From Mesotoga prima MesG1.Ag.4.2 (GTDB taxonomy: Bacteria; Thermotogota; Thermotogae; Petrotogales; Kosmotogaceae), in NCBI RefSeq assembly GCF_000147715.2, contig NC_017934.1:1736001-1800000 (forward strand): a stretch of DNA of 64,000 nucleotides, written 5' to 3'. The translations under genes and the position numbers were made by a program. Shown here piece by piece: positions 1,730-24,949 of this stretch. The stretch's first letter is position 1. Each line of letters starts with the position of its first letter. The notes under the pieces were generated by a model, which was not told the DNA's origin, did not search any database, and was given only the letters and a program-made list of their open reading frames with translations.

Positions 1730-1745
1730 CATACCACTATGGTTC

Positions 1746-3394: not shown

Positions 3395-3490
3395 CATACC
3401 ACTATGGTTCATTCACCTTCGGTGGCCAGTCGCACTTCGTGCGGCCAGTCTTTGCTTCGCAAAGGCCAGTTCCGACTTCGTCGGGCCTGA

Positions 3491-3722
3491 GAACCGTCCT
3501 CCGAAAGGATCTAAGATCAGATCCTGAACAGGAGCATTTCAGGATGACATAATAGTTGGTTCTCACAGCCTAGCATGATGCCCCTTGAAGGATCTTTCCT
3601 CCTGGCGAAGCCAGCCGTGCGTCCCCGGATGCATCTCCGGGCATTGCGTCCGCCGATGATCTTCGGCGCATCACTTCCCGGGATGATCTTCCCGGCACAG
3701 CGTCCTGCCGAAGGCAGCAATT
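3491..3722. repeat. Array-embedded element, copy 7 (left-truncated)
   Basis: It lacks the ATACAAGAGC left end but has the rest of the element, and it leads into the repeat fragment at 3723 that opens the continuous array. The left truncation coincides with the foreign 80-bp hairpin segment. Confidence 0.75.
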
Positions 3723-9048: not shown

Positions 9049-10032
9049 CTACCACCACATGTGAAGCGCTTTGTAGTCTTCCTCTGAAAGAATAGACCGG
9101 ATCAGTTTGTAGCATTCGGTTAGAAGAAGCGTGTTGTACGAGACTTTCCTTTTTAGTGTTGGATGAAAGACCGTCTCTTCCATGAATTTCTCGAAGTGCT
9201 CAACGTACTTCTTCATTCCTTCATTGGTAAGAAGGGTTGAATTCATTTCCTTATCGAAGTCGTCTTCTGTAATGATGGCTTTGTTCAGTAGAGTCATGAT
9301 CAGTCTGTCTACGATTACAGGTTTGAAAACCTCGCTTATGTCGAGGCAGAGCGAGAATCTCATTTCGCAGGGTTCGTGGAGAAAGCTCACTGTGGGATCG
9401 AGTTGGGTCTGATAGATCTTACTGAGTGTCCTGGTGTAGAGTAGTGAGTTCCCGAAGGAGATCATGCAGTTGAGTATACCCAAGGGAGGCTGTCTGATTC
9501 TTGTTACGAATTCCTGACCGGTAAGCCCCGCAAGAATCGGATAGTAGTATTGTCTGAAAGCGCCCTCGACAGCCATTACTGAGTTTACCCCAGTTGTGTT
9601 TTGAAGTCTTTCTCTAGTGTTCTTCAGCCCCTCTATCTTGTCTTTGTATCCGGGAATCTTGCTGGAGGATCTCTGGAGAACTCTAAGCATGTTGTGCATC
9701 GCTCCGTCGATGAATTCTCTAGATAGTTTCAGCCTTTTAATAGGGTCGAGAAAGGTTTTGATCTGTTCTACTAGGAGTTTCCCCGATACTTTCTGCTTCC
9801 TCGGAACGAAACTCCCGCTGTACCAACCATTATGGGAGAAGACATGAAGCGCTACTTCCTTTTTTGAAAGGAAGGAGAGAAGATGGGTGTTAAGATCGAT
9901 TTCTCCAAAGGTCGAAATCGATTCGATCTTTTCTATTGGAATGAACTTTCTTCTGCCCTCACGTTCAAGCAGAAGAGTGTTGTCCTTTCTGCTCAGCTGT
10001 CCGCTGGCAAAGAGATAGAAGTTCTTCTTCAT
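9049..10032 (-). CDS. cas1: Cas1 spacer-acquisition integrase
   Basis: A 327-residue metal-dependent integrase that inserts new spacers at the leader end. I start it at the internal ATG (10032) because AGGAGG lies 8 nt before it; the longer frame would overlap cas4. The N-terminal beta domain begins KKNFYLFASGQLSRKDNTL, which is Cas1-like. The alpha-domain active-site set can be read as E156 (VMAVEGAFRQYYY), H219 (FLHEP) and D231 (LCLDISEVFKPVIVDRLI). It is the last gene of the minus-strand cas operon, 11 nt after cas4. The protein looks intact, although its usual partner cas2 is not found downstream. Confidence 0.96.
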   Translation of the reverse strand: MKKNFYLFASGQLSRKDNTLLLEREGRRKFIPIEKIESISTFGEIDLNTHLLSFLSKKEVALHVFSHNGWYSGSFVPRKQKVSGKLLVEQIKTFLDPIKRLKLSREFIDGAMHNMLRVLQRSSSKIPGYKDKIEGLKNTRERLQNTTGVNSVMAVEGAFRQYYYPILAGLTGQEFVTRIRQPPLGILNCMISFGNSLLYTRTLSKIYQTQLDPTVSFLHEPCEMRFSLCLDISEVFKPVIVDRLIMTLLNKAIITEDDFDKEMNSTLLTNEGMKKYVEHFEKFMEETVFHPTLKRKVSYNTLLLTECYKLIRSILSEEDYKALHMWW

Positions 10033-10043
10033 GATCAAACCTC

Positions 10044-10553
10044 CTAGGAAAAGCAGAGATCGAAGTACGAACAACCTTTGCACCCTTCTTTGAAGAGCGG
10101 AAGGGGCGCATTATCCAGGTTGAAGATTGTCTTTATCTCATCGAGATCTCTTCTTATTTGTTCTTCGTCTTCTTCAGTAAGTGAGAGCATGATCATTTTC
10201 TTGGCTCTGGGATACGTTAGCCTGGCAGTAAATTCGTGAAGGCCAAGTTTATGCTTTAGATAGTAGAGATAATACTTGACCTGATAGATGTGGCCCTCTC
10301 TCACTTCTTTACCGTACTTGATTTCAACGATTTCTCTTGTGTTTCTGAGTATGTCGAGAGAGATCTCGTCGATCACGATGTCTTTGTCTTCGCCCTGACT
10401 GTATTCTTCTTGAAGTAGCTTGCCGAGTTGAACGCTCTCTGAAGTCGATTCCATTGAGATGTTGTGAAGAAAGAACCAGAGCTGCGTCTTGCAGTAATGG
10501 AGATAGTTGATTGCATTACCCCCGATCCTCGGCTGTCTTTCCGTTATTTCCAT
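10044..10553 (-). CDS. cas4: Cas4 RecB-like nuclease
   Basis: 169 residues. Cas4 trims prespacers and helps choose the PAM side during acquisition. The four iron-sulfur cysteines are visible as C21 (YLHYC), C158, C161 (CKGC) and C167 (FDLC). The nuclease core shows D62 in VIDE, E77 and K79 in VEIKYGKE, and the QVKYYLYYL helix (QhxxY type). It overlaps the cas3 stop codon by one base and is followed at once by cas1, so the three genes are coexpressed. Family assignment is secure. Confidence 0.95.
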   Translation of the reverse strand: MEITERQPRIGGNAINYLHYCKTQLWFFLHNISMESTSESVQLGKLLQEEYSQGEDKDIVIDEISLDILRNTREIVEIKYGKEVREGHIYQVKYYLYYLKHKLGLHEFTARLTYPRAKKMIMLSLTEEDEEQIRRDLDEIKTIFNLDNAPLPLFKEGCKGCSYFDLCFS

Positions 10554-12607
10554 CAGAAGCCCTCGACTATGGAACCTTCGTCTTCTTTCGGACCGAGGTA
10601 GCCGAATGATGGATCGTAGATGATTGGCGCGTAGATGAATCCGTCATCATCCTTTTCCAAGCGTCCGATCACATCTCTTACAGGTACTTTGACAAGTTTG
10701 CCGAGTTTCTGCATCTTGCCCGAATTATCGTTCCTGAATTCAGCAGGTATCACTTCTATAGTCTTGTAGGGGATACGGCGAATCAGGTCGTCTGCAAGCC
10801 TTTGATCGATTGACATCGAATAAATCTGGAAGTTCATCTCTCTCACAAACTGCCAGCTCGCCTTACCGGCAGAGATCTCCTCTTCAATGTTCTCTATTTC
10901 AGAGAGTAAGTCTTCCATCATTTCCCTTAGTTCAAGTCCGCTAGGCGTTTGATGGGCTTTTAGGAGTCCAAGAGATTTGGCGACAAGGTTCTTGTTGTAG
11001 ACAGAATATGAGTTTTCATTCTGAGGGAAGATCATAACCTCACCTATCGGAGTGGTGCCTTCTCTGTTTACTCTCCCGAAACGCTGGGTGAGCGAGTCAA
11101 TCGGTGCAGCTTCTGTTATGAGGACATCGTAGCTTATATCAAGGCTGATTTCGATCGTCTGTGTGGCTACGATGATTCTCGGAGGAGAATCTCCCGTAAT
11201 GCGAGAGAGGATTCTTTCCCTGTCTTCGAGGTTGAAGCGACCGTGATAGAGAATTATTTCTTTATCTGGAATCTTATCTGACAGGGTTTTGAAAGCTTCC
11301 GTTGCCTTTTTGACCGTGTTGAAGCAAAGAATGGCTTTTTTCCCCTTTTTATGTTGCCTCTTTGTCTCTTCAACAGGGTCGACATCTTCTAAATGAGAGA
11401 TGGTGATTCTTCTCAGCGATTCACCTTCGTAATCTCTCACTATCACAGGGTAGTCAAGAACTTCCTTGAGCTTCTGGATCATGTAGGAAGGGAGAGTGGC
11501 GCTCATCACGCAAACTGGAGTACCCATGGCGTTAAGCATTTTTATGCTTTCAAGCAGTATGCCAAATGTGTACGGTTGACTCGCGTGGATCTCGTCGAAT
11601 ATGACCGCCGAATTGACGATATTTACTATCTTTGGCTCCCATCTTCCCCAGTTAAGCGACATGAGAAGAAGCTGATCGAGAGTCGCAACGTTAATTGGGT
11701 TGTCAAAGGCTTTCATCCAGAAGATTCTATCTCGGGTGTCTTCGGAGTATCCTTCGTTAGAATACAAATAGTATGCGATGTTGCCGTGGACCAGACCGGT
11801 TTTGTCGGACACTTCTTCCGTGTATCTTTTGTACATAGCTTCGACTGTTGTCACTGTGGGAAGAAAGAGGGTGGACTTTTCTCTTCCAGTCGATTTTGTC
11901 CAGACAAGAGCGGCGAGAGATTTTCCGCGACCAGTAGGAGCGAGGATTATCGTGTCCTTTCCGGTAGAGGCCTCTGCTTGAAATGTGCGCAAGGGCCGAG
12001 AATCGAGTTTTATGCTTGCTGATGAGAGTGACTTCTTTGCGGAAGCCGACCAATCTGCAAGGTTTAGAATTCCCTGGATCAAGAAATAGAGTCGCCTGTC
12101 GCGAGGTGCGCCAAAAAAGAAGTTGCAGAGTCTCTTGAGAAGTTCTCGAGGAGAAGGTATCTGCAAGTCGAGATCGGGAAGCTCAATTCTGAAGTGACCC
12201 TTCGCATAGTCTTTTATCTCCTTGAATTCATTCACAAGTTCGAGGTTTGGAGTCGCCTGTTGTCTTTGAAATTCCAAGGATGAAAAAGAGTCTTTGAATC
12301 GAGAACCATGATGGCCCAGTATAGACTGGAGGATGTAGTTCTTGATGGGGGATTCTTTAAGAGAGGCCATAGCTATCTGAGCCGAAGCAAGTGAGTGGGA
12401 AAAGCCCTTCTTGTCGAAGGAGAATTCTACACAGCCTTTCCCGATGTCGTGGAAGGCGCAGGCGGTTAGAATTGCTTCTGAGATTTGTTTTGGGTCAAGA
12501 TTCGTGTTTTTGAGGGCGATTTTGTTTTGATCAAGATAGCTATGAGCGTAATCAAGAACTCTCTCGGTATGCTCTACCAGGCTTACTCCCGGCTTTGCGA
12601 GAGACAT
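10553..12607 (-). CDS. cas3: Cas3 HD nuclease-helicase
   Basis: 684 residues from the ATG at 12607, chosen because GGAGG stands just before it and the longer frame runs into cas5. The N-terminal HD nuclease domain has FHDIGKG with H53-D54. The middle carries the superfamily 2 helicase motifs: Walker A APTGRGKS, DExH as FDEIHAS, then MSATLPS. The second RecA domain follows, with ATQTIEISLDISYD and the QRFGRVNREG motif. Cas3 is recruited by Cascade and unwinds and cuts the non-target strand. HD and helicase are fused in the usual order. It begins 4 nt after cas5. Confidence 0.96.
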   Translation of the reverse strand: MSLAKPGVSLVEHTERVLDYAHSYLDQNKIALKNTNLDPKQISEAILTACAFHDIGKGCVEFSFDKKGFSHSLASAQIAMASLKESPIKNYILQSILGHHGSRFKDSFSSLEFQRQQATPNLELVNEFKEIKDYAKGHFRIELPDLDLQIPSPRELLKRLCNFFFGAPRDRRLYFLIQGILNLADWSASAKKSLSSASIKLDSRPLRTFQAEASTGKDTIILAPTGRGKSLAALVWTKSTGREKSTLFLPTVTTVEAMYKRYTEEVSDKTGLVHGNIAYYLYSNEGYSEDTRDRIFWMKAFDNPINVATLDQLLLMSLNWGRWEPKIVNIVNSAVIFDEIHASQPYTFGILLESIKMLNAMGTPVCVMSATLPSYMIQKLKEVLDYPVIVRDYEGESLRRITISHLEDVDPVEETKRQHKKGKKAILCFNTVKKATEAFKTLSDKIPDKEIILYHGRFNLEDRERILSRITGDSPPRIIVATQTIEISLDISYDVLITEAAPIDSLTQRFGRVNREGTTPIGEVMIFPQNENSYSVYNKNLVAKSLGLLKAHQTPSGLELREMMEDLLSEIENIEEEISAGKASWQFVREMNFQIYSMSIDQRLADDLIRRIPYKTIEVIPAEFRNDNSGKMQKLGKLVKVPVRDVIGRLEKDDDGFIYAPIIYDPSFGYLGPKEDEGSIVEGF

Positions 12608-12611
12608 TATT

Positions 12612-13307
12612 CTACCTCCAGAGGGGAAAGACAGTATCTGAGACATCTACTGCCTCTCCAGAGTATTCGACCGGTTCGGAGATGTATGTGTAAGGAGATC
12701 TGTTTTTTGGCCTCCGTGCTTTCGGGTTCCGTTTATCTCTATCAAATTCGCTATTCAGCCAGTAAGTCTTGAAGTGAGGGATACTCCCTTCATTTAGAGC
12801 GGTGATGTTGATCTTGCCTTGAAGGTCTCCCTTAACCACAGTGTTGTGTATGACTGATCTCTCCACTCTCTCTGCGGTCTCTAATTCAGACTGGATAAAG
12901 GTTATGAACTCGTCGTCTCTTCCCAGACTTAGGGGGAAGCAGGGATCGGAAATAGCTTTCTTAATCTCTTTTAGTTTGGTCTCGGGGCCCACAATTAGAA
13001 GTCTAATATTGGGTTGATAGAGGACCTCTCTTATCACGACAGCCTTACCAATGGATCTTCCACCGTCTTTTACCTTCTTTATCGCCCATGCGTCTTTTGC
13101 AATTCCTTCATTCTCCTGTATGTGTACGCCGAAAGAAAGGTCCCGGCAATAGTTCTGTGCTTCGAAGTATTCTCTGCCGGTAGCTGCGCCGATTATTCCA
13201 GTGATCGTGGTGGGCGGAGGAAAGGGCAGGCTCTCCTGATAATTCATGGATGCGGGGCTTCGAAAGGAAGCTGTGTATCCTTTTATTGAGATTTGGAGCA
13301 CTAACAT
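12612..13307 (-). CDS. cas5: Cas5 Cascade subunit
   Basis: 231 residues from the ATG at 13307, which follows GGAGGTGAAAAG at good spacing. The N-terminal RAMP fold shows SIKGYTASFRSP and PFPPPTTITGIIGAATG, both typical of Cas5 of subtype I-B. Cas5 caps the 5' handle of the crRNA in Cascade. A strong hairpin followed by TTTT separates it from cas7 upstream, so it may be made in smaller amounts than Cas7. Confidence 0.93.
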   Translation of the reverse strand: MLVLQISIKGYTASFRSPASMNYQESLPFPPPTTITGIIGAATGREYFEAQNYCRDLSFGVHIQENEGIAKDAWAIKKVKDGGRSIGKAVVIREVLYQPNIRLLIVGPETKLKEIKKAISDPCFPLSLGRDDEFITFIQSELETAERVERSVIHNTVVKGDLQGKINITALNEGSIPHFKTYWLNSEFDRDKRNPKARRPKNRSPYTYISEPVEYSGEAVDVSDTVFPLWR

Positions 13308-13328
13308 CTTTTCACCTCCATTGGAAAA

Positions 13329-13348
13329 GGCCCCTCGCATGAGGGGCC
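13329..13348 (-). terminator. Hairpin between cas7 and cas5
   Basis: A perfect 8-bp GC-rich stem with a 4-nt loop (GGCCCCTC-atgc-GAGGGGCC on the minus strand) followed by TTTTCC. It lies 4 nt after the cas7 stop codon and about 20 nt before cas5. In the middle of an operon it would act as a partial terminator or a block to 3' decay, favouring the many-copy Cas7. Confidence 0.75.
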
Positions 13349-13352
13349 AGTG

Positions 13353-14234
13353 TTATATTGTTGAAAGAATCTCTTTCACTCTGGAGAAGGCGTCTGTCAT
13401 GGGAAGAACTTCAACTGTCTCAGGAACTCCAGCATCCAGCGCAGATGCGTCAAGTACTTTCGTGGTTCCAATGATTACGCGATCGATTATGCTTGAATAA
13501 TTGGTAATGCTATCGATCAGCGTTTCGGCATTGATCTTTCCCTTTGTATCACAGCTTACGGATTCGAGGAGGAAGGGAAGCTTTACTGTTTGAAAGGCGA
13601 AGGCGATGAATTTCGGAGAGATGTCTGATAGTATGTTGGTCTGCTTTCCGCCTGTCCAGAGAGTCATCATGGAATCGAGGAAGAGGTTGAGTCTTCTCAA
13701 GCGCTCTTCTTTCTGTATCTCGAGTGTGGTCTCTTTGATTTCAGAAGGATCGAATTTGCCGACCCTGTCAAGTTCTATAAGTCCGCCGCCTCTGAGATAC
13801 GCGGAGTAGACTTCGGTTTCAACCATGTTTCCGCCCTTGTCGCTGGCTTTTCTTGTCTTTGTAAGTAGATCTCTGTCGCCTCTGTAAGGGAAGAGAGATA
13901 CGAGCGGGGCGATTCTCACGGGAGACGTTCTCTTTCTGTTGTCACCGGTTACTGCGATCATAAAGCCGAAGAGGTCGTCGTCGATGTAGTTCAGCGGATC
14001 TCCGAGTGTAGTTTCGACTTCTCCGTCTACGGGAGTGGAGAGGGCCTCGCCGATTTCTGCAAATCTCTCTCTCAGGCCGTGGCGCTGACATTGTCCGGAA
14101 ACGTAGTTGAAAGCGGATCCGTCGGGAGCGACGATCTTTTTTGCGGTCTGAATGTTGCCTTCTGTGAATCCTGCGTTGGGGTTACCCATAGTGACTTTGG
14201 ATATCGAACCCCAGGAGAGACATTTAATCTGCAA
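13353..14234 (-). CDS. cas7: Cas7 Cascade backbone (DevR/Cst2-type)
   Basis: 293 residues if translation starts at TTG 14234. That codon stands after GGAGGTGAAAAG, the same signal that precedes cas5, and the upstream ATG lacks such a site. The site itself is encoded by the last codons of cas8, so the two genes overlap by 11 nt. The N-terminus (KCLSWGSISKVTMGNPNAG) and the central GDNRKRTSPVRIAPL region fit the DevR/Cst2 branch of Cas7, which binds crRNA in several copies along Cascade. Confidence 0.93.
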   Translation of the reverse strand: MQIKCLSWGSISKVTMGNPNAGFTEGNIQTAKKIVAPDGSAFNYVSGQCQRHGLRERFAEIGEALSTPVDGEVETTLGDPLNYIDDDLFGFMIAVTGDNRKRTSPVRIAPLVSLFPYRGDRDLLTKTRKASDKGGNMVETEVYSAYLRGGGLIELDRVGKFDPSEIKETTLEIQKEERLRRLNLFLDSMMTLWTGGKQTNILSDISPKFIAFAFQTVKLPFLLESVSCDTKGKINAETLIDSITNYSSIIDRVIIGTTKVLDASALDAGVPETVEVLPMTDAFSRVKEILSTI

Positions 14235-15525
14235 TCTTTTCACCTCCATTCTGTGAGGATGCATAATGTCTTGAAAGGTATTTGTTCACGGCGAAGATTA
14301 CAAGAAGTGCTTTGGGCTTCTTCCAGCTTTCCTCATTGAGGATCCTTATGAACTCTTCGGGAATTCTGATTTTCCAATCCTCTTTTGCGTACTTGAATTC
14401 AAGATCGGCAAGGGTGAGCAAGAGATCCTCCAGAGAGCGGCTGTTGCGTAAAGAGTATAGATCGCCGAAGCTCTGGGCTTCAAAGACCGCGTTGCCAATC
14501 ACTTCTCCGGCCTTTTTTGAGAGATCGATTGTCATTTGATCCAAGCCATTCACTCCTTTCATGGTATTTGATGCAACTATCACCTCGTATATAGAATGGA
14601 CAGGGTAATCGAAATCAAAGATGATCATCTGAAGCCTTTCTTCGAGTGGCTTGAAAGAGAGGATCATTCTGGATATCTCTTCACGTCTCGAAACGTCGGC
14701 AGAGGGGCTTCCGGGGATTACCAGACTGTCCATGAATTTCGAGAAGTCGCCACCCAGGGTCTCCACGTTTTCGAAAAAGGTTGTCAGCTCCTCCACTCTC
14801 TCGAATGAGTCGAAGTTGAGAAATGAGTTGTTTCTTCCAGTGTTCGAGACCTGCATAACTTTGAACGAGGAGCGGGGAATGAATCTGGTCTTCTCGAACA
14901 GGGTGTGAAGAGAAAGGAGAAGGGTTTCATAGGGTTCCTGAGGATAGAATCTCGCCTTGACCTTCAGGTTTCTCCATGAACCGGGTTCGTGGAGGTCTTT
15001 CATCCAGAGAAATGTATTGTAGGTCGATTCGAGAGTATCGCTCTCCGGGAAGAGGTAAGTGATCACGTAGTCCTGCCCGTCCTTATAGGATGTGTAGAAC
15101 AAGGCGAGACCGGCCATCATTCCAAGGAACTGGCAGTTAAGGCAGACTTCACCGCTTCCCGAGCCGAAGCTGAAGAAGCTCTGAAAGTTCTCGGCCTTCA
15201 CCGATAGGGGATCTCCCAGCATCGACAGTTTTTCGAGAGTTGAGACTCTAGAACCGCAAAGACTGCATACTTTGCTTCCAATCTTGTTTTCCTCGAGGAT
15301 CTTTGAGACTTTGTCCAGAACTGTGTACTGCTTTAGAAAAGGTCTGAGGTTTGGCGCCCAGGGCTTGCCGTTCTTGTTGAGCATATCTTTGAGGGCGTTT
15401 TCGAAGATTGTCTTTTTGGGCGTCTGTGTCTCGAAAAGGTTTCCCGTGATAGTACAGTCTGCAGTATATCTCTTTATCGCGACCGCTCCGGCCATTTGCC
15501 AGAAACTTCTTATATGAACTCTCAT
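14224..15525 (-). CDS. cas8: Cas8-type large Cascade subunit (zinc-finger, Cst1-like)
   Basis: 433 residues from ATG 15525, preceded by AGAGGTGT. Two CxxC pairs, C87/C90 and C128/C131, form a likely zinc finger as in Cst1/Cas8b proteins. The rest is weakly conserved, as usual for this family. Its position before cas7-cas5-cas3 is the standard place for the PAM-reading large subunit of type I-B. It starts 16 nt after the 57-residue Cys-rich gene. Family name rests on context plus the finger; a profile search could place it in a neighbouring Cas8 group. Confidence 0.82.
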   Translation of the reverse strand: MRVHIRSFWQMAGAVAIKRYTADCTITGNLFETQTPKKTIFENALKDMLNKNGKPWAPNLRPFLKQYTVLDKVSKILEENKIGSKVCSLCGSRVSTLEKLSMLGDPLSVKAENFQSFFSFGSGSGEVCLNCQFLGMMAGLALFYTSYKDGQDYVITYLFPESDTLESTYNTFLWMKDLHEPGSWRNLKVKARFYPQEPYETLLLSLHTLFEKTRFIPRSSFKVMQVSNTGRNNSFLNFDSFERVEELTTFFENVETLGGDFSKFMDSLVIPGSPSADVSRREEISRMILSFKPLEERLQMIIFDFDYPVHSIYEVIVASNTMKGVNGLDQMTIDLSKKAGEVIGNAVFEAQSFGDLYSLRNSRSLEDLLLTLADLEFKYAKEDWKIRIPEEFIRILNEESWKKPKALLVIFAVNKYLSRHYASSQNGGEKIAD

Positions 15526-15541
15526 GTGACACCTCTTTCGG

Positions 15542-15715
15542 TTAAGAATTGTCCTCACAGTTTTCGCAGACGTTTCTTCCTTCCTGAATTGTGCAACCGC
15601 AGCAGTCGCAGAAGACTCCTTTGCACCAGCAGGTCGCGCAGGCGCTGCCTTCTAAACCAAATCCCTCATCTTCATCTAGGCAATCATCCTCGTAGAAATC
15701 TCTTTCGTCTTCCAA
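15542..15715 (-). CDS. 57-residue acidic Cys-rich protein heading the cas operon
   Basis: Starts at TTG 15715, 7 nt after GGAGGTGA. The first 24 residues are strongly acidic (EDERDFYEDDCLDEDEG). The second half holds nine cysteines, spaced CATCWC, CDCCGC and CENC. This looks like a compact zinc ribbon or double knuckle that could bind nucleic acid or RNA polymerase. The shared promoter-like motif lies 23 nt upstream and cas8 follows 16 nt downstream, so it is the first gene of the cas operon. I do not recognise a family. Confidence 0.75.
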   Translation of the reverse strand: MEDERDFYEDDCLDEDEGFGLEGSACATCWCKGVFCDCCGCTIQEGRNVCENCEDNS

Positions 15716-15738
15716 GATGGCTCACCTCCTTCAAGCTT

Positions 15739-15755
15739 TATAATCACACTTTTTT
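15739..15755 (-). promoter_or_regulatory. Shared motif, site 1 (cas operon)
   Basis: AAAAAAGTGTGATTATA on the minus strand, 23 nt before the TTG of the 57-residue gene. One of four near-identical copies in this locus. No TTGACA-like element stands 16-18 bp upstream. The TGTGATTAT part could be read as a poor extended -10, but the flanking A-tract and the GTG are conserved too. Confidence 0.75.
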
Positions 15756-16064: not shown

Positions 16065-16110
16065 GAAATCACCTCCTTATATTGACAGTCATGGCACTCA
16101 GCCTAGGATA

Positions 16111-16125
16111 TATAATCACACTTTT
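16111..16125 (-). promoter_or_regulatory. Shared motif, site 2 (100-aa gene)
   Basis: AAAAGTGTGATTATA on the minus strand, 46 nt before the ATA start codon. The 5' A-tract is shorter than at the other sites, while GTGTGATTAT is exact. Confidence 0.72.
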
Positions 16126-16367: not shown

Positions 16368-16517
16368 TTACTTGCTCAGTTCTTCCTTGGTCTTCTTGTA
16401 CTGTACAGCTATATGACATGCAGCATCGAATACTTCCAGTCCTACTTTGACAACGAGCATGATTGCTTGTGCGATATTTGTTGGATTGCGAGGTGCTCCC
16501 AGTTCATTTGGTTTCAC
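16368..16517 (-). CDS. 49-residue small protein with a hydrophobic helix
   Basis: I start it at GTG 16517, directly after AAAGGGAGGTGAAACA; the longer frame would place that ribosome site inside the coding region. Residues 15-40 form one largely hydrophobic helix (AQAIMLVVKVGLEVFDAA) and the tail is basic and charged. It could lie on a membrane or pack into a complex. No family is recognised. The shared motif lies 45 nt upstream. Between its end and the next motif there is a 240-nt gap in which I see nothing. Confidence 0.65.
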   Translation of the reverse strand: MKPNELGAPRNPTNIAQAIMLVVKVGLEVFDAACHIAVQYKKTKEELSK

Positions 16518-16562
16518 TGTTTCACCTCCCTTTATCTCAGTTATGATCGTACTTTCATGATT

Positions 16563-16578
16563 CATAATCACACTTTTT
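16563..16578 (-). promoter_or_regulatory. Shared motif, site 3 (49-aa gene)
   Basis: AAAAAGTGTGATTATG on the minus strand, 45 nt before the GTG start. It differs from the others only at the last base, and the distance to the start matches site 2. Confidence 0.72.
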
Positions 16579-16600: not shown

Positions 16601-17290
16601 TCAGAAGAGATTTAGCTGATTATCATGGCCGGGTTCTCTTGAGATCAGCGCGTTAAAAAGAATCGAATAGGTCTTGATTCCTATTCCTCTAATGTCTAGG
16701 ATCTCTCTGAAACGAGTGACGTCTTCGCGTTTGTCCAGAAGTCTTTTTATGATCGAAGGCCTGAGAGTAAGGCATTTCAGTTCATATTCAGACATCGCCC
16801 TTAGCTGTTTTATCATCGATTCCTCGTTTTTCGAAGGGCTTTTATCCAGACAGAGAAGTATTTCTGCCTTTGAGCTTTCAAATACCTCTCTTGTTATGTT
16901 CTCCGATGTTTGAGGATCTATACCCCCCTTTCCTGCCCCGGCCAGAGGAAGGGCAACTCTTTCAAAATTGCTTTCTGTTATGATCTCTTCCGCACGCTTA
17001 AGAGAGGAACGTATCCATGAGATTTTTGATGGCATCTTCCAGTCTTCTTTGACAAACAGACTGATTATCCTTGGAAAAATATCTCCTCGGAATATCCAGG
17101 CAGAACCGGGCAAAGGACCTTCGTGGGAGCATCTCTCTCTGTAATTATCAAAATAGCTAGGAAATCTAAGTTTGAACTCAAGCGCCAATCCGGCCCCCAT
17201 AACTCCCTCTGTATTGACGGTGTTTGCTATTACGGGGACATTCTCTTCTTCAAACGCGGCAAATACGCTTTTCTTATATACAGTTATCAT
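16601..17290 (-). CDS. darG: DarG-like macrodomain antitoxin
   Basis: 229 residues. The N-terminal macrodomain has ANTVNTEGVMGAGLALEFK, the ADP-ribose-binding signature of DarG, and LPLAGAGKGGI for the second ligand loop. In DarTG pairs this domain removes ADP-ribose from thymidine in DNA. The C-terminal part (about 150-229) is helical, with DIRGIGIKTYSILFNALISRE resembling a helix-hairpin-helix. The usual DarG C-terminal domain, which binds and blocks DarT, is longer. The gene starts 4 nt after darT with GAGGG before its ATG. Confidence 0.88.
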   Translation of the reverse strand: MITVYKKSVFAAFEEENVPVIANTVNTEGVMGAGLALEFKLRFPSYFDNYRERCSHEGPLPGSAWIFRGDIFPRIISLFVKEDWKMPSKISWIRSSLKRAEEIITESNFERVALPLAGAGKGGIDPQTSENITREVFESSKAEILLCLDKSPSKNEESMIKQLRAMSEYELKCLTLRPSIIKRLLDKREDVTRFREILDIRGIGIKTYSILFNALISREPGHDNQLNLF

Positions 17291-17294
17291 AAGC

Positions 17295-17885
17295 TCAGCC
17301 CTCGAAGTAATAGGTGTATCCGCTATCGCGGAGCTGTCTGATGGAGATTCCTTTTATCTTTTCCGCAGTTCTGTCTAGAATTATACATTCGATCCATTCC
17401 GGTTCGATCATGTCGATCTTCACTAAGATCTCGGCACCAAGTCTTTTCTTGAGCAACCAGTTATCGTAGAAATTTCTCGTTGAAAGCACCACTTCAATAT
17501 TTATCTTCTTGAGAGCGGGTTCACTTAGAGTGTAGATCTCGGCATCACTGCAGGCGGCGATTCTGTCAGATACCAGGCAGTCATAGTGAGTTACTAGATC
17601 GCTATTCAGTCTTAGAATCGCGAAATCTCTGTTTTCTTTCTGGTAGCGGAAGGTCATCGCATTCCTGGTATTAAAGAACAGCGGTACATATTCATGTAGG
17701 GACTTTCTTTCTCTGATTGTTTGAACGGTCTGATCGGAGTAATCATCGTATGGTATCTCCAGAGTCTCTACTGCCATCTTGCTCATTACTCCGTGTTCGA
17801 GTATCGAAGGAATATTCTTTACTGGCGAAAGATAGTAGAGATGCTTCACTCCGAACGCCTGTAAAGGATTACTGCTCGTAACCAT
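17295..17885 (-). CDS. darT: DarT-like DNA thymidine ADP-ribosyltransferase
   Basis: 196 residues, typical DarT length. The NAD-binding start is LYYLSPVKNIPSILEHG. HEYVPLFFNTRNAMTFRY corresponds to the YVPFYF-P-S segment of DarT, and RLGAEILV near residue 155 holds the expected catalytic glutamate. Known DarT enzymes modify thymidine in single-stranded DNA and stop replication, and they act in phage defence. It is followed by its antitoxin, reads from a copy of the shared motif 23 nt upstream, and is divergent from the polymerase operon. A start at ATG 17885 has GGGAGGTGAG before it. Confidence 0.88.
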   Translation of the reverse strand: MVTSSNPLQAFGVKHLYYLSPVKNIPSILEHGVMSKMAVETLEIPYDDYSDQTVQTIRERKSLHEYVPLFFNTRNAMTFRYQKENRDFAILRLNSDLVTHYDCLVSDRIAACSDAEIYTLSEPALKKINIEVVLSTRNFYDNWLLKKRLGAEILVKIDMIEPEWIECIILDRTAEKIKGISIRQLRDSGYTYYFEG

Positions 17886-17908
17886 TATCTCACCTCCCTT
17901 TCAGGGTT

Positions 17909-17925
17909 TATAATCACACTTTTTT
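17909..17925 (-). promoter_or_regulatory. Shared motif, site 4 (darTG)
   Basis: AAAAAAGTGTGATTATA on the minus strand, 23 nt before the darT ATG, identical over 17 bases to site 1. It sits only 8 bp from the -35-like element of the divergent polymerase promoter, so occupancy of one could affect the other. Confidence 0.75.
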
Positions 17926-17933
17926 ACGAGGCT

Positions 17934-17961
17934 TTGGATTCGCAAATGGAAAGCGTATAAT
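17934..17961 (+). promoter_or_regulatory. Housekeeping-type promoter of the polymerase operon
   Basis: TTGGAT (17934-17939), a 16-bp spacer and a perfect TATAAT (17956-17961) precede the polymerase gene by about 52 nt. It has no copy of the AAAAGTGTGATTAT motif, which suggests that the host polymerase makes the dedicated one. Confidence 0.6.
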
Positions 17962-18013
17962 ATCGTTGAAACTGAATTACTAATTCTTTGCAGTTGTCTG
18001 TTTTGGAGGATTT

Positions 18014-21000
18014 ATGGTTAATAAAATCACTTATTCCTTGCAGCAGGTCTTCGCCGGTCTAGAACTTCTGATAAAAGAGGACTACAAACTGTTGTTCGAG
18101 AAGTTTTCTCCGGAGTTTGGACTGATCGAAACGCTCGAGGAGCCTTCCGGTTCTGCTCTAGCGAAGTTCTCATTTGAATTCGAAGAAGATCGTTATTCTG
18201 TAGGATTCAAGGTTCTAAATCCCGATCAGGATGGTGCCTTTTCATATCTTTCGAAAAGGTATTCGACGCCGCTAATACTGCTAGAGAAGAGGGGGCGTTC
18301 CTCTGACTATCTCGATCTCGAGAACTTCTGGGTAGTGCCAGGGTATTACTTGAGAATGGCCTTTGTGTGCTTGCAGGTTTTGAGAGAACTGCAGTCAAAA
18401 AACGGCATGGAACGTTTAGATACAGTCCTCGAAACGGCTGAAACTCTTCTCAACAGAACGGTTGTTGGGACCGAGATTCTCAAGCAATACGACACAAGTG
18501 ACATTGAGGAAGAACCCGAGATGAAGAAGCCGAAGTATCTAAAGGTCCCGATCCTCTTTGAACTGCCCTCTTCAAACGGGCTTCTGCAGATATCCGAGCT
18601 GAGAAAGGCGGTCATACCCGGAGACAAAGTGAAGGAATCGCTTAGATTGCCTCATTTCTCGCACTTGGGGAAGCTGGATCTTCTCGAGACTCCTGAATCC
18701 GTGAGAATCGGAATGAATCTCTTCCTTGCGAACGGCGCCCGTTATAATGCTTCGGATCTTGAGATAGAAAGCAGTGGCGAAGATTCCGAAGCCCTTCTTA
18801 GCCCTTCTACGTGTGCTGTTCCTTTCATGGCATACTCAGATGGCGTCAGGGTTACTATGGGAGGCAAGAATCTGAAGCAGGCAGTAAAGGTTGTTTCCAG
18901 CGAAAAGCCAATAATTCGGACTCCCATTGATGAGGAAGTTGATCTTGACTACGGTGTCAATGCCCTAGCCGGATATGCGTTGTTCAACGGCTTGAACTTC
19001 GAAGATGGAATAGTTTGTTCTGAAGGGTTTTCAATGAAAATGTGCATCGTAGAGAAAAAGACAATTGAAATCGTCGACTCAGTTCCTGTATTGCTCGATG
19101 CGAAGGTCAGTGTTAAGAACAGGTCTACGATAGAGCTTTCCAGTGAGGAAGGTTCGATAAGGATTGTTTACAACTTCAGAACTAAAGGTTCGATTGTCAA
19201 TAAAGGTGACTGGCTGATAAGAAGAAATGTCTTTTTTGGTGGAAACGATAATCCCACTAAGTCCTATTCAAAGAATATCTACTATGACCTTTCATATCCA
19301 GGGGAAATCTTGCAGAATCCAGAAGAGAGAATGATCTCGTTCATTATGAGAACTATACCAACCGCCAGGAAGATAAAAAAGGGGGAAAAATTAGTAGACA
19401 ACTTGAACGAGAGCGTCGTCTCCATAAGTGTTCCCTTGACTATCACAAAGCCGCTCGAAATTGGTGACAAGATTACTGGAAGACATGGAAACAAGGGCAC
19501 TATATCGAAGATCGTTTCCGAAAGAGAAATGCCGCATGTTGAAATAGATGGCCAACGCAGACCTCTGGACATTATTCTGAGCCCCTTCGGGGTTATAACC
19601 AGAATGAATCTAGGTCAGCTACTAGAGACGCACAAATCACTTGAAGGTGAATATGTCGACAAACCTTTTAAGAATCTGGATCTCGCTTCCAGGGTCGCCA
19701 AAGGAAGAGACATACCACAGCTGAAGAAGAGACTCTTTTTTGCAGATGGAACTTCGTTTGAGGCAGCAGTCGGTTATCAGTATTTTGTGAGGCTAGATCA
19801 CTGCGTAAGGGACAAATTGCATGTAGTAGATCTTGCGGAGACCTCTAAGATTACGGGACAGCCAGTGAAAGGAAAGCGGAGAGAGGGCGGACAGAGAATC
19901 GGCGAAATGGAGTTTTGGACTCTCTTCGACAACAATGCGCTTGAGACCGTTGGGAGGTTTTCTCAAACTAACATCAGCGATTCTTCAGACTTCATGAAGC
20001 GCTACTTCGATACCTTCAGGCTTCTTATGAACTACTACAGGGATTTTGATGTTGAAATCGAGGACGACCCGTTGAGAATAATTGTTAAGGAGACTTCAAA
20101 TGACTTCCTGGAGAAAGTCGCGAGCGACGAAACCATGAGCGAGTTCTTCAAGCAAATTAAGGGAAGGGCGAAAGACAGGAAAGAGAGAAGATTCCTGCTA
20201 TCTAAGTCAGGATATTTGAGAAAGTACATGCTTGGAAGACGGATTCATTCTTCTGGCAGAACCGTGATCACACCGGTGACAGACATAGACATAGACCATG
20301 TTTATCTTCCCTACGAATTTGCAAAACTTTGGCTTCCTCTGAAAGAGGATTCTAAAGAAGGGATTAAGATTGCTAATGATCTGGCGAAGGAGAGTAATCT
20401 CTATGTGCTTCTCAACAGACAGCCCTCTCTCCATAGACACAGTATTTCCTCTGCTAGGCCGATTTTCTGGGAGAACAAGACAATAGGATTGCCAATTATG
20501 TTGTGCGATGGATTCGGCGCCGATTTCGATGGCGACTCCATGGCTGTTTACCTGCCCGTAGATCAGGATGAAGATCTGAAGAGAGAGCTGAAATCTATGC
20601 TTCCCTCCAACAACCCGTTCAGAATTGGAACGGGAGAACTCACTTTTTCGGTCACTCAGGATTTGGTGTACGGTCTATATAGAAAGAGAGGACTTAACTC
20701 CAAGAAGGTAAAAGAGGAGCTTACACAGATAATAGAGAATTCCAACAATATTTCGAAAGATCTTCTGAAGTGGCAGAATGAAAGCCTTGCAGCGGCAAAG
20801 GAATCGGGACTGAGTCTTGATCTGCGCGATATCGCTTTGATGAGCGAGGTTGCCAAGAGCGTTAAAGATTCGGGCAGTAGAGGAAAACCAGAGCACTTCG
20901 TACAGATGGCTGAGGGGATTGATCTCGATGGAAGAAGGGCTGAAGCCTTTGCGAGAGGAGTATCGAGAGAAGATTACCTTGGTCGTACAGATGGTCTTGA

Positions 21001-21892
21001 TGTGAACATTGCGTCCAGATCGAGGACAGGTTTGATCGACAAGAAACTCCATGTCGCCGAAGCGGGATACTTTACCAGGAAGTTGGTCGAGTTTCTGTAT
21101 CCCGTTTCTGTCACAGAAGAAGACTGTTGTACAGATGACGGAATAGAACTCAATCAATCATTTGTCCAGCATCTGGCATTGCGAAAATACTCTCTTGAAA
21201 GACTGATACTCGGCAGATATGTCAAGAGGCCGATGGACAAAGAGTGGATGCCTGTAACGCGAAGTAATCTGAATGACTTCAGAGACTGCGATCTTCTGCT
21301 GAGAAGCCCGGTTAAGTGTGCGTCCTCAGGGGAGAACGGCATCTGTTCAAAGTGTGCGGGTCTCGAGCTCTCCAGTATGAAGAAGTTTAGAGTCGGCAGC
21401 TTTTTGGGAGTTCTTTCAGGCCATACTATAGGAGAGCGGGGAACTCAGCTTTCGATGAAGACCTTCCAGACGGGCTCATCAGGGTTCAGTATGCAGCGGG
21501 TCTCTTCGGAATTTTTCAAGGCCGAAGAAGAGTTTTCTTCTTATCTAAAACGGCTTGCCGACAGATCTATCGAAGGGATAATGAAGGGTTCATCGAAGTC
21601 GGCATCAGGTTCTGCTGAAGAGGGATCGCCCGTTCTCGGTACCATAGATGTGGCCTCTATCTATTTGGAGGTTCTCTTTAGACATTTGAAGGATACCGAA
21701 ATACGTACTGAGGGGGAATTGAAGAAGAGACTCTCTGATCCAAGGGAAGTCGGGATATTCTCTGCACTTTCTTTCGAGAAAAGCGGCAGTTCAGAGAAAA
21801 TCGGAATCGGAGAAGAAATAGAGGAGAAGTCTCCTAAGGCGAATTATGCGCTTAGGCCGGGAGAGGTGGCTAAATGGGTAGGGAAAAAATAA
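18014..21892 (+). CDS. Single-chain beta/beta-prime RNA polymerase linked to CRISPR
   Basis: 1292 residues, less than half of a normal bacterial beta plus beta-prime. Residues 210-640 follow beta: HFSHLGKLDLLETPE (214-228), NGLNFEDG (325-332), GDKITGRHGNKGTISKI (484-500), LSPFGVITRMNLGQLLE (522-538) and GGQRIGEMEFWTL (625-637). Residues 725-1155 follow beta-prime: SGYLRKYMLGRRIHSSGR, LLNRQPSLHRH, then the catalytic GADFDGD (835-841), bridge helix near 1003-1022, zinc cysteines 1038/1102/1111/1114 and trigger loop GTQLSMKTFQTG. All three catalytic Asp are present. The usual Asn of NADFDGD is Gly and the trigger-loop His is Gln. Only about 90 residues join the halves, so the sigma-binding clamp coiled coil is missing. 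Followed with overlap by an unknown gene, an AAA+ ATPase and cas6. GGAGGA precedes the ATG. Confidence 0.93.
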   Translation: MVNKITYSLQQVFAGLELLIKEDYKLLFEKFSPEFGLIETLEEPSGSALAKFSFEFEEDRYSVGFKVLNPDQDGAFSYLSKRYSTPLILLEKRGRSSDYLDLENFWVVPGYYLRMAFVCLQVLRELQSKNGMERLDTVLETAETLLNRTVVGTEILKQYDTSDIEEEPEMKKPKYLKVPILFELPSSNGLLQISELRKAVIPGDKVKESLRLPHFSHLGKLDLLETPESVRIGMNLFLANGARYNASDLEIESSGEDSEALLSPSTCAVPFMAYSDGVRVTMGGKNLKQAVKVVSSEKPIIRTPIDEEVDLDYGVNALAGYALFNGLNFEDGIVCSEGFSMKMCIVEKKTIEIVDSVPVLLDAKVSVKNRSTIELSSEEGSIRIVYNFRTKGSIVNKGDWLIRRNVFFGGNDNPTKSYSKNIYYDLSYPGEILQNPEERMISFIMRTIPTARKIKKGEKLVDNLNESVVSISVPLTITKPLEIGDKITGRHGNKGTISKIVSEREMPHVEIDGQRRPLDIILSPFGVITRMNLGQLLETHKSLEGEYVDKPFKNLDLASRVAKGRDIPQLKKRLFFADGTSFEAAVGYQYFVRLDHCVRDKLHVVDLAETSKITGQPVKGKRREGGQRIGEMEFWTLFDNNALETVGRFSQTNISDSSDFMKRYFDTFRLLMNYYRDFDVEIEDDPLRIIVKETSNDFLEKVASDETMSEFFKQIKGRAKDRKERRFLLSKSGYLRKYMLGRRIHSSGRTVITPVTDIDIDHVYLPYEFAKLWLPLKEDSKEGIKIANDLAKESNLYVLLNRQPSLHRHSISSARPIFWENKTIGLPIMLCDGFGADFDGDSMAVYLPVDQDEDLKRELKSMLPSNNPFRIGTGELTFSVTQDLVYGLYRKRGLNSKKVKEELTQIIENSNNISKDLLKWQNESLAAAKESGLSLDLRDIALMSEVAKSVKDSGSRGKPEHFVQMAEGIDLDGRRAEAFARGVSREDYLGRTDGLDVNIASRSRTGLIDKKLHVAEAGYFTRKLVEFLYPVSVTEEDCCTDDGIELNQSFVQHLALRKYSLERLILGRYVKRPMDKEWMPVTRSNLNDFRDCDLLLRSPVKCASSGENGICSKCAGLELSSMKKFRVGSFLGVLSGHTIGERGTQLSMKTFQTGSSGFSMQRVSSEFFKAEEEFSSYLKRLADRSIEGIMKGSSKSASGSAEEGSPVLGTIDVASIYLEVLFRHLKDTEIRTEGELKKRLSDPREVGIFSALSFEKSGSSEKIGIGEEIEEKSPKANYALRPGEVAKWVGKK

Positions 21893-22782
21893 CAGAAAAG
21901 ACACCTGAAAAGTCGAAAGGCAAAAACAAGGAAAAGTTTAAATCGCTTACCACGTCCTTTAGAAATAGACCCGTTGAAACCAGCGAAGAAAGTGAAGAAG
22001 AGCTTCCAGATGAAGAAGCGTTTGAGGAAGTTGAATCTGAAGACCACGATAATGACGAGACTTCAAATTCCGATCCGTTCGCATCTGTAGAGAACCTTGA
22101 GAATCTGGTTTTTGAGCCGGCAGAGAGGAATCCGATTTCCGAGAAGAGAGTTGTTCTGGAAATCGTCAAAGGGAAGAGGTACCATTGTCTGAGAAGATAC
22201 AGGTGGAGTTTCGAATTCTCTGAAAACTCTCCCCAAAAAGAAGAACACATGAGGCGTTTTGGGGAAACGGTTAGAAGAACAGGCAGGATTATTGAGAATT
22301 TCCTCAATGGATACCTCGAAGGAGAGACGGCCTCGATTCAAGATCTCTTTGGCTCGCTCAGCTCAAAGATTCTCTTTGGCGTCTCCGATTTGAATGACGT
22401 ATCCAAGAACCAGTTATCCTGGTATCTCTTCCGGATGCCCGACGGAGTTCTATACACTCTCAACTGCCTAACTCCCAGAAGCGGTGCCCCAAATCTTTCG
22501 AAGCAAGCACTGTCGATTATGAGAATCTCAATGGGGGACCCGGAGGTGGGAGAAGTGCTCAAATATAAGTTTGAAGAAGTGATCGCAAAGTCTACCGGGT
22601 TAATTGACTATTCGCTTGAGCTGGAAGATTTGTTGGGGAGAGTCATCTGCCTGAACAGGACCATTATGAAGGCCGGGTATCCCGAAAGCAAACTGGGCGA
22701 ACCGAGAGCTCTATTGAAAGAGCTTAACCGAAGTTCAATAAGACACTATTTTCATCAAATTGCTGGGAGAGCTAGGAAATGA
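21874..22782 (+). CDS. 302-residue protein of unknown family, candidate polymerase partner
   Basis: The frame overlaps the polymerase stop by 19 nt and the next start by 4 nt (ATGA). Translational coupling of the three genes is therefore likely. Residues 1-30 are lysine-rich, 33-75 strongly acidic (SEESEEELPDEEAFEEVESE) and probably disordered. From about 88 on the protein is folded and mixed alpha/beta, with KGKRYHCLRRYRWSFEF, a helical middle and a C-terminal LNRTIMKAGYPESKLGEPRA stretch. I recognise no sigma, alpha or omega signature. Its place between the polymerase and the ATPase makes it a candidate promoter-specificity or assembly factor, but that is context only. Confidence 0.85.
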   Translation: MGREKITEKTPEKSKGKNKEKFKSLTTSFRNRPVETSEESEEELPDEEAFEEVESEDHDNDETSNSDPFASVENLENLVFEPAERNPISEKRVVLEIVKGKRYHCLRRYRWSFEFSENSPQKEEHMRRFGETVRRTGRIIENFLNGYLEGETASIQDLFGSLSSKILFGVSDLNDVSKNQLSWYLFRMPDGVLYTLNCLTPRSGAPNLSKQALSIMRISMGDPEVGEVLKYKFEEVIAKSTGLIDYSLELEDLLGRVICLNRTIMKAGYPESKLGEPRALLKELNRSSIRHYFHQIAGRARK

Positions 22783-24152
22783 GAGTATTCATTGTCGAGA
22801 AGGGTTTTGAAGAGCATGAGCTAAGAGTGCTCAAGGAGATCGTTGATAGTCTTGTTTCTTCAAAAGAGGATCTAAGAGAAAAAGTGGAGATTGTTGAGCT
22901 TTCTGAATTTCGCGAAGAACAGGGAATAATGATCATCTCCCAGCAGGTCATTGGAGAGCTGAATCCTGAACGGTCTTCAGGCCAGTTATTCATAATGTTC
23001 AAAGGAGGTCTTGAAAGCAACATAGTAGGTTTCGCGCAAAGAATGGGTGCTGTCGGAATCTTCCCTATCGATCGTTTCTATGGAGAGAGAATGGAATATG
23101 GGGAGATTTCACGGTTTGAGAATGTCTTGAAAAACGTTTTGAGAGATAGACTTTCAACCCGTTTTCCTGAATGGGACTTTAAAAAAAGGATCGACTGGAA
23201 AATGAAACTTGATGACAAGGCTTTCGAAGATGAAGACGCCTATATTTCGCTATTTGGAGACGAGATTACCCACAAGAACGTCAAGAAGACCAACGAAATA
23301 ATAACGTCTGTCATGCCCTATGTTAAAGAGCTAAAGACGTTTAGATTAAAATCGAAAAGGGTTCTTGAAGAGCTAAAAAAGAAGGAACTCTCTGAAGACC
23401 CGAAACTTGAAGGAGCTAGAATAGCCATAAGAAAACTGAATGATTTGACATCCGAAATGAAGTTCAGAAAGCCGGTTTGTATTCTGCTTACGGGTCCAAC
23501 CGGCTGCGGCAAGACTCTTCTGGCGAAGTACATAGCAAACAGCCTATTTGGCTCCTTGGAGACCTTTTCTAGAATCTCACTGGTCAATATGGGCGATAAC
23601 CTTCTTGAAAGCGAGCTTTTCGGAAGTTTTCCGGGGTCGTGGACCGGGAGTTCTTATAAGGTTGGAAAAATGGTGTCAATGGCGGGAGGAGCGGTATTCC
23701 TCGATGAGATCGGAGAAATCTCTCCTGCCATTCAGGCAAAGCTTTTGACCTATCTGGACGATATGAAGGTCCTTATAGAAGGCCTTTCAGATACTTCGGG
23801 AGTGAGAGTTCCCGTATTGATTATCGCCGCCACGAATCGAGATGTTAGAAAGGAAATGAGCCTCGGCAATTTCAGGTCTGACTTCTATCAGCGTTTTGCC
23901 TACGAGATTCACATGCCTTCGCTTTCTGAGAGGAAGTCAGATTTCAGATATATTCTTAGTCATCTTCTCCAGGTGAAAAAGAAGATTCTGAATCTAAGTA
24001 TAGATGAGATAAGCATAGCCGCAATAGAGAAACTGGAGGGTTACGAGTACCCCGGCAACTATCGAGAACTAGAGAGAGTTGTTACCGCGGCCATGATGAG
24101 CGCAAAGATGGATGGACGGGAGATTGTTCTGTCTAGAGATGTTCAGTTTTAG
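22779..24152 (+). CDS. AAA+ ATPase of the sigma-54-activator type without DNA-binding domain
   Basis: 457 residues. The core has Walker A GPTGCGKT (239-246), ESELFGSFPGSWTG (277-290) at the place of the GAFTGA loop, Walker B VFLDEIGE (307-314), sensor I ATNRD, the FRSDFYQRF arginine-finger helix and sensor II YPGNYRELERV. This is the bacterial enhancer-binding-protein layout. The essential Phe of GAFTGA is Trp, and the chain ends about 25 residues after sensor II, so the usual Fis-like DNA-binding helix-turn-helix is missing. Residues 1-100 look like a worn receiver domain (GAVGIFPIDRF at its end) without a clear phosphorylation site. In this operon it may remodel the dedicated polymerase instead of sigma-54 holoenzyme. 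Confidence 0.9.
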   Translation: MRVFIVEKGFEEHELRVLKEIVDSLVSSKEDLREKVEIVELSEFREEQGIMIISQQVIGELNPERSSGQLFIMFKGGLESNIVGFAQRMGAVGIFPIDRFYGERMEYGEISRFENVLKNVLRDRLSTRFPEWDFKKRIDWKMKLDDKAFEDEDAYISLFGDEITHKNVKKTNEIITSVMPYVKELKTFRLKSKRVLEELKKKELSEDPKLEGARIAIRKLNDLTSEMKFRKPVCILLTGPTGCGKTLLAKYIANSLFGSLETFSRISLVNMGDNLLESELFGSFPGSWTGSSYKVGKMVSMAGGAVFLDEIGEISPAIQAKLLTYLDDMKVLIEGLSDTSGVRVPVLIIAATNRDVRKEMSLGNFRSDFYQRFAYEIHMPSLSERKSDFRYILSHLLQVKKKILNLSIDEISIAAIEKLEGYEYPGNYRELERVVTAAMMSAKMDGREIVLSRDVQF

Positions 24153-24169: not shown

Positions 24170-24949
24170 ATGAGAGTTAAGCTTACGCTTAGCGGTCTGA
24201 AGAACAAGGCCGTTCCCCGCGATCATTTTCATCAGCTTTCGGGCCTTATTTACGCGATGATACAAAAGGCAAATCCCGATTATTCGAAATGGCTGCACGA
24301 CGAGGGCTTTCTTGACGGAAGCAAGAGCTTCAAGTTCTTCTGTTTCTCCAAGCTAATTCCGGAAAAGAATGCTTATATCAAAGCCGGAGATAATGGCGAG
24401 ATGATTGTCTTCACCAAAGACATCGCTGCTCTATATATATCCTCGCCGGTGAGGGAGATCATGCAGCATCTAGTAGATTTCTTGCTGCTAAACAGGGAAA
24501 TTAGAATCCTCAATCATAATCTGGTGATTCAAAACGCCTTTGCATCGACGGAGAGTTTTGAAAGCGAAGAGGAGCTCTTCAAATGTATTACGCCTATCGT
24601 TCTTTCGACGAGAAACGACGAACATAAGACGCCTTTCTACTTGAGGGCCTATCAGGATCCTGCCCAGTTTGGCGAATTCCTTACTAAGAATGCCAGAGAG
24701 AAATTCAGAGTTTTCTCCGGGAGAGAGAGCAGTGTCAGTATTGTTGTCGATGGCGAATATGTAGAAAAAGTCGGGAGGAAGAGCAACATAAGAATCAACA
24801 TAGTTGACGATATCGAGGTCTTCGGATCGGTCGTCCCAGTAAAGATTTCCGGTACCGGAGAGGAGATTGCGTTTCTGTACGATACTGGACTTGGAGAAAA
24901 GAATTCCCTTGGAATGGGAATGATAGAAATTGCCGGGAAGCGGTTTTGA
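24170..24949 (+). CDS. cas6: Cas6 crRNA-processing endonuclease
   Basis: 259 residues, normal Cas6 length. N-terminal RDHFHQLSGLIYAMIQKANP resembles the first ferredoxin-like helix of Cas6, and the C-terminal glycine-rich loop GLGEKNSLGMGMIEI is the family hallmark. Cas6 cuts the repeat RNA at the foot of its stem to leave an 8-nt 5' handle, here ATGGAAAC. It is placed as last gene of the polymerase operon, 17 nt after the ATPase with GGGAGGT before its ATG, and apart from the other cas genes. crRNA maturation is thereby tied to expression of the polymerase. Confidence 0.93.
   Translation: MRVKLTLSGLKNKAVPRDHFHQLSGLIYAMIQKANPDYSKWLHDEGFLDGSKSFKFFCFSKLIPEKNAYIKAGDNGEMIVFTKDIAALYISSPVREIMQHLVDFLLLNREIRILNHNLVIQNAFASTESFESEEELFKCITPIVLSTRNDEHKTPFYLRAYQDPAQFGEFLTKNAREKFRVFSGRESSVSIVVDGEYVEKVGRKSNIRINIVDDIEVFGSVVPVKISGTGEEIAFLYDTGLGEKNSLGMGMIEIAGKRF

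Follow-up and report, generated by a model that had tools for sequence, protein, structure and literature searches.

To our knowledge, the private RNA polymerases (RNAPs) described so far belong to phages, plasmids and organelles, and none has been described for a bacterial defence regulon. The non-virion RNAPs of the jumbo phages AR9 and phiKZ have no alpha subunits, recognize short promoters of their own and use a separate specificity protein (AR9 gp226) without similarity to sigma factors (PMC7598289). Phages also encode fused beta-beta' RNAPs, of which the crAssphage type is named in PMC7481178. In the cascade of Thermus phage P23-45, a first polymerase transcribes the gene for a second one, and this second enzyme then reads the next gene class (PMC10770324). 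RtcR is a sigma54 enhancer-binding protein (bEBP) built from CARF, AAA and helix-turn-helix domains (PMC9650030). Here we analyse a stretch of 64,000 nucleotides from Mesotoga prima MesG1.Ag.4.2 (contig NC_017934.1, positions 1,736,001 to 1,800,000; the window, whose numbering is used throughout), in which a fused beta-beta' RNAP gene lies among clustered regularly interspaced short palindromic repeat (CRISPR) genes. Two promoter types are packed into the intergenic region that separates this gene from the divergent toxin gene darT. The best explanation for this arrangement, with a probability that we put near 0.7, is a cascade in which the host RNAP would make the dedicated RNAP and the dedicated RNAP would make immune effectors.

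This system would resemble the jumbo-phage RNAPs in lacking alpha subunits, in having short promoters of its own and in having a separate candidate specificity protein, which is proposed here. It differs from them in combining beta and beta' in one 1292-aa chain, in being chromosomal, in its proposed role in a bacterial immune regulon and in including an ATPase that resembles sigma54 activators. Phage fused RNAPs are also single-chain beta-beta' two-barrel enzymes, but they form a separate clade and, at about 1,900-2,460 aa in IMG/VR, are nearly twice as long as the CRISPR-linked enzyme. The P23-45 cascade is viral, with both enzymes encoded by the phage; in Mesotoga the first enzyme would be that of the host, and the genes served would be those of defence. 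The ATPase shares an AAA+ domain and a GAFTGA-type loop with bEBPs, and RtcR-type models are its best PADLOC match. Unlike bEBPs and RtcR, it has no DNA-binding domain, has a receiver-like rather than a CARF N-terminus, occurs also in genomes that lack sigma54, and is accompanied by its own polymerase. The type I-B and III-B CRISPR-Cas genes with CARF effectors and DarTG are standard sets. Literature searches found no dedicated polymerase described for such CRISPR systems, although an earlier mention in surveys of CARF or CRISPR neighbourhoods is possible.

Two putative promoter types in the divergent control region

The control region (17886-18013, 128 bp) is the gap between darT, which starts at 17885 on the minus strand, and the polymerase gene, which starts at 18014 on the plus strand. 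Directly before darT is a putative dedicated-promoter motif (A6 GTGTG AT TATAAA CCC TGAA; 17900-17925, minus strand), which reads AAAAAAGTGTGATTATAAACCCTGAA from 17925 to 17900. The polymerase operon has a sigma70-like promoter (17934-17961, plus strand) with TTGGAT at 17934-17939, TATAAT at 17956-17961 and a 16-bp spacer that includes a conserved CAAATG. Only 8 bp (17926-17933) separate the motif from TTGGAT, so the original prediction of two promoter types within 128 bp holds at the level of coordinates. The region is 98.5% identical in the sister genome G029, and its layout is kept in G020, which belongs to another genus and has a polymerase that is 46% identical.

The polymerase-side promoter is weak by consensus. 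It matches sigma70 at 9/12 positions, a level that is no better than chance (375 of 1000 shuffles of the intergenic region equal it), and a promoter scan omits it because only three of the six -35 positions agree. However, its candidacy is rescued by conservation across genera. In G020 the polymerase gene is preceded by the same pattern, CTTTGGATT..CAAATG..GAAA..GTATAAT..GTTGAA, for which phylogenetic footprinting gives a score of 41 compared with a maximum of 38 in 500 shuffles. By eye, a TAGGAT-17-TATAAT promoter with the same TTCAAAT spacer is also visible in G023 and G026.

A second sigma70-like promoter, TTGATT-18-TATAAT (8379-8408, minus strand), had been claimed for the CRISPR leader, and it is found there with a 10/12 consensus match, about 19 bp before the first repeat and conserved in G029. 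The CRISPR arrays behind it (1305-8360, minus strand) contain 86 detected repeats of 30 bp, with the sequence GTTGCGTAAGAACCATAGTGGTATGGAAAC in the transcribed sense. Tandem repeats of 286 bp occur beside the arrays (737-2036).

Distribution of the shared motif

The window contains four copies of the motif core, all on the minus strand, compared with 0.01 expected from shuffling. In the complete 2.98-Mb genome there are five exact sites and two with one mismatch; six of these seven lie on one strand of a single 28-kb CRISPR island, and all five exact copies are there, upstream of genes. Aligned sites from seven genomes give A5GTGTGnnTATAAnnnTGRA, in which the nn dinucleotide is genome-specific (AT, TG, CA or TA). 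In G020 the TATAA block is shifted, yet the distance from GTGT to TTG is still 11 nt, which indicates that it is the two outer blocks that are fixed. The motif can be written in the two-block form AAAAAGTGT-N10/11-TTGRA.

Within 320 nt of the polymerase operon, a relaxed form of the motif that points away from the operon has 11 matches in 10 of 24 loci compared with 0.25 expected, which argues that the divergent layout itself is conserved. This pattern was partly derived from G000, G029, G002, G095 and G097b, and G020 and G097a had already been seen by eye; the matching loci that were new to the test are G094, G006 and G066. The motif also tracks the polymerase gene across the 103 Thermotogota genomes analysed. 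Exact AAAAGTGTGNNTATAA is found in 8/27 polymerase-positive and 3/76 polymerase-negative genomes (P = 0.0009), and at least two motif copies are found in 4/27 and 0/76 (P = 0.004).

The genes behind the motif belong mainly to immunity. The first copy in the window precedes darT (17295-17885) and the gene for its macro-domain antitoxin DarG (16601-17290), both on the minus strand. The fourth copy (15730-15755, minus strand) precedes a 57-aa Cys-rich open reading frame (ORF) and the type I-B operon (9049-15558, minus strand), which encodes Cas8b (14224-15558), Cas7 (13353-14264), Cas5 (12612-13340), Cas3 (10553-12646), Cas4 (10044-10553) and Cas1 (9049-10083). Cas8b, Cas7, Cas5 and Cas3, together with Cas6, make up a type I-B gene set. 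Just outside the window, the motif stands before a III-B Cmr operon that includes a CARF gene (L068:19376) and before an operon encoding C3a193 (possibly an alternative Cas3), a CARF-CYTH-HD-HEPN-CARF protein and CARF-RelE (L068:10003). Elsewhere it precedes cas8 and a helicase-Cas4-Cas1 operon (G101), a uracil-DNA-glycosylase-like gene with I-B cas genes (G008, G011), DarT and cas6 (G010), cas6 (G020) and Cmr/CARF genes (G024).

The other two copies in the window stand before small frames. Copy 2 (16554-16578, minus strand) precedes an ORF for a 49-aa hydrophobic peptide (about 16370-16519). In both Mesotoga (16370-16519, minus strand) and Athalassotoga (L263 near 12190), motif copies are followed by short helical peptides of hydrophobic character, which could be toxins or signalling peptides. 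Copy 3 (16102-16125, minus strand) and a strong ribosome-binding site precede a frame of about 98 codons (16065-15770, minus strand) that would start at ATA, as no ATG, GTG or TTG fits the ribosome-binding site. The 57-aa ORF between copy 4 and cas8b (15542-15715, minus strand) resembles a small zinc-binding protein. In Athalassotoga-type genomes, the uracil-DNA-glycosylase-like gene heads the motif-preceded I-B operon (L263:11084-11881, L257:5888-6661).

The fused polymerase and its module

The 1292-aa polymerase (18014-21892, plus strand) is a single chain that matches both large RNAP subunits, beta through Rpb2 domain 6 and beta' through Rpb1 domains 2 and 5. It has the signatures of two-barrel RNAPs, namely the GADFDGD catalytic loop, the bridge helix and the trigger loop (DKKLHVAEAGYFTRKLV; GHTIGERGTQLSMKTFQTG), with residues that are invariant across seven members, and the beta motifs GDKxTGRxGNKG and GGQRIGEMEFWTL are also conserved. 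Judged from these residues, the enzyme is predicted to be catalytically intact. About 55% of the residues of the genome's own RpoB and about 35% of those of RpoC are covered. Most of the beta' N-terminal clamp is missing, including the clamp helices that dock sigma70, and the corresponding RNEKRML region is a gap in nearly all of the CRISPR-linked members aligned. Rifampicin-site residues are not conserved. With a single ORF in place of separate beta and beta' subunits with clamp helices, the enzyme does not qualify as a cellular RNAP core.

The fused polymerase is present in 27 of the 103 genomes. A tree of 26 CRISPR-linked, 24 viral and 4 cellular sequences resolves three separate groups, with the CRISPR-linked polymerases in a clade of their own (support 1.0) that excludes both the cellular RNAPs of Thermotogota and the phage fused RNAPs. 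Single-sequence searches of IMG/VR, phage and plasmid collections returned only distant or ordinary RNAPs and no close relative, and the polymerase is missing from PADLOC-DB 2.0.0. Among the viral RNAP loci from IMG/VR (L120-L199), 71 of 80 encode beta and beta' as one ORF, of about 1,900-2,460 aa where sampled, and these single-ORF enzymes form one clade apart from cellular RNAP. In G059 (L093/L094) the polymerase gene is interrupted by stop codons, which suggests that the module is decaying there.

The usual module order is polymerase, small middle protein and AAA+ ATPase resembling sigma54 activators. In Mesotoga these are followed by Cas6 (24170-24949, plus strand) as the last gene of the operon. 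The middle protein (302 aa; 21874-22782, plus strand) adjoins the polymerase in nearly every locus. Its homologs are 180-302 aa long, with an N-terminus that is Lys/Gln-rich and then acidic and a conserved core, R..L..Y..x.DG..YPLS.FT..G. In a profile-profile comparison this core aligns with the helix-turn-helix of RpoN (SRAVxxKYxxTPxGxFPLRYFF) with a score reached by 2 of 300 column shuffles; profile-sequence scores against sigma54 from hmmsearch are no better than those of shuffled decoys. Kinship of the middle protein with sigma54 is thus only a lead.

The ATPase (22779-24152, plus strand) is a clear relative of sigma54 activators (PF00158, 1e-32), with Walker A and B motifs, an arginine finger and a GAFTGA-type loop that reads GSWTGS here and GAFTGA or GA[FY]TD[AS]-like elsewhere, being altered from GAFTGA in most members. 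Its top fold match is NtrC1. This match spans the N-terminus, which is receiver-like by secondary structure and has a predicted local distance difference test (pLDDT) mostly below 50. In all full-length members the chain stops after the AAA lid, leaving no C-terminal Fis-type DNA-binding domain. A profile search of the phylum finds the ATPase in 27 genomes, 26 of which are common with the polymerase set; the polymerase genome in which it is missing is G002, whose contig ends just after the polymerase. In G011 (L256:8484-13041) the ATPase lies beside a 1035-aa HD-CE protein with no fused polymerase, which suggests that the HD-CE protein is an alternative partner there.

No sigma54 gene was found in seven polymerase genomes (G006, G007, G053, G054, G094, G095 and G097), of which two are about 99% complete; in these organisms the ATPase must therefore work with some other partner. 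The natural candidate is the linked polymerase, acting through the middle protein. Mesotoga itself has an unlinked sigma54 gene. Most polymerase loci are near cas or CARF genes, and CARF genes adjoin the module itself in G006, G008, G020, G038, G041, G044, G066, G094 and G095. Downstream of the Mesotoga module, an element that by eye resembles a group II intron with a reverse transcriptase ORF occupies 25490-26843.

A proposed two-tier cascade and its alternatives

The control region is probably the switch point of a two-tier cascade. Host RNAP with its housekeeping sigma would read the conserved TTGGAT-16-TATAAT promoter and produce the polymerase, the middle protein, the AAA+ activator and Cas6. 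Because the clamp helices for sigma70 docking are missing, the fused polymerase probably needs its own specificity factor, for which the middle protein is the best candidate. The resulting holoenzyme would read the two-block motif, which is distributed before CRISPR interference operons, CARF and alternative Cas3 effectors and DarTG. The ATPase probably remodels the closed complex and serves as the gate by which an infection signal switches on the regulon. The CARF genes that adjoin the polymerase in several loci make cyclic-oligonucleotide signalling a plausible trigger. Since this polymerase lacks the residues for sigma docking and rifampicin binding, immune genes could stay transcribed when a phage shuts down host RNAP.

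The original prediction of such a cascade is upheld in part by comparative evidence on the two promoter types, the catalytically intact dedicated polymerase, the immune and toxin genes behind the motif and the conserved divergent layout. Its assignment of Cas6 to the host enzyme fits Mesotoga but does not generalize, since the motif is upstream of cas6 in G020 and G010. The proposed targets of the dedicated enzyme, effector genes and the toxin pair, are indeed both preceded by the motif, but the set is wider and includes the III-B Cmr and alternative Cas3/CARF operons. The mutual interference that it suggests from the close packing of the two promoters is hypothetical.

Several observations weigh against the cascade. 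No recognizable motif faces the polymerase operon in 14 of the 24 loci, where the promoter has either diverged or is absent, and a de novo search for 14-mers in loci without the motif returned nothing beyond repeats and chance words. Searches of Pfam, NCBIfam, PHROGs, PADLOC and PDB gave no match for the middle protein, whose structure is poorly predicted (pLDDT 46) and has no fold match. Motif-preceded immune operons occur in G024, G010 and G011, although searches for a fused polymerase found none there; the G024 draft is fragmented, but G010 and G011 are about 96% complete. Finally, G057 and G064 have the module with no recognized cas gene nearby.

The operons in G024, G010 and G011, and the likeness of TATAA to a -10 box, are what would be expected if the motif were instead the site or promoter of a regulator that acts with host RNAP, with GTGTG as the operator and TATAA as the host -10 box. 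The fused polymerase would then serve otherwise, for example by making RNA from phage or single-stranded DNA. We regard this as unlikely, because motif abundance tracks the polymerase, the motif is divergent at the polymerase operon in several genera, and the shift of TATAA in G020 at a fixed GTGT-to-TTG distance is unlike the behaviour of a host -10 box. We infer from these patterns that the motif is read by the fused polymerase and not by host RNAP with a regulator.

It is much harder to credit that the ATPase works on ordinary sigma54-RNAP and that the motif is a variant sigma54 promoter. The clear relationship of the ATPase to sigma54 activators and the unlinked sigma54 gene in Mesotoga would fit, but seven module-bearing genomes have no sigma54 gene, the -24/-12 signature GG-N10-GC is missing from the aligned motif sites, and the ATPase has neither a DNA-binding domain nor, in most members, an unaltered GAFTGA loop. 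Fused RNAPs are known from phages, and the module has a patchy spread in the phylum, as might result from capture or domestication of a mobile or viral enzyme that has no regulatory tie to the adjoining immune genes. This origin is very improbable given that the polymerases form their own clade separate from viral RNAPs, gave no close relative in single-sequence searches of the IMG/VR, phage and plasmid sets and mostly lie near cas or CARF genes.

If the cascade exists, then Thermotogota may have a second, self-contained transcription apparatus used only for immunity, a wider proposal that we make tentatively and at somewhat less than even odds. The fused beta-beta' chain would form its core, a minimal factor resembling sigma54 would give it promoter specificity, and an AAA+ activator of its own would complete it. 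Infection signalling would switch it on. Neither host sigma nor the inactivation of host RNAP by a phage would affect it, and the one private class of promoters that it reads would stand before DarTG, CARF proteins and the CRISPR effectors of types I and III. A cellular chromosome would then encode an RNA polymerase for immunity with its own class of promoters, which would show how defence genes could remain active when transcription by the host is disabled by a phage. It would also offer for study a small two-barrel RNAP that consists of one chain and may start transcription by a sigma54-like mechanism.
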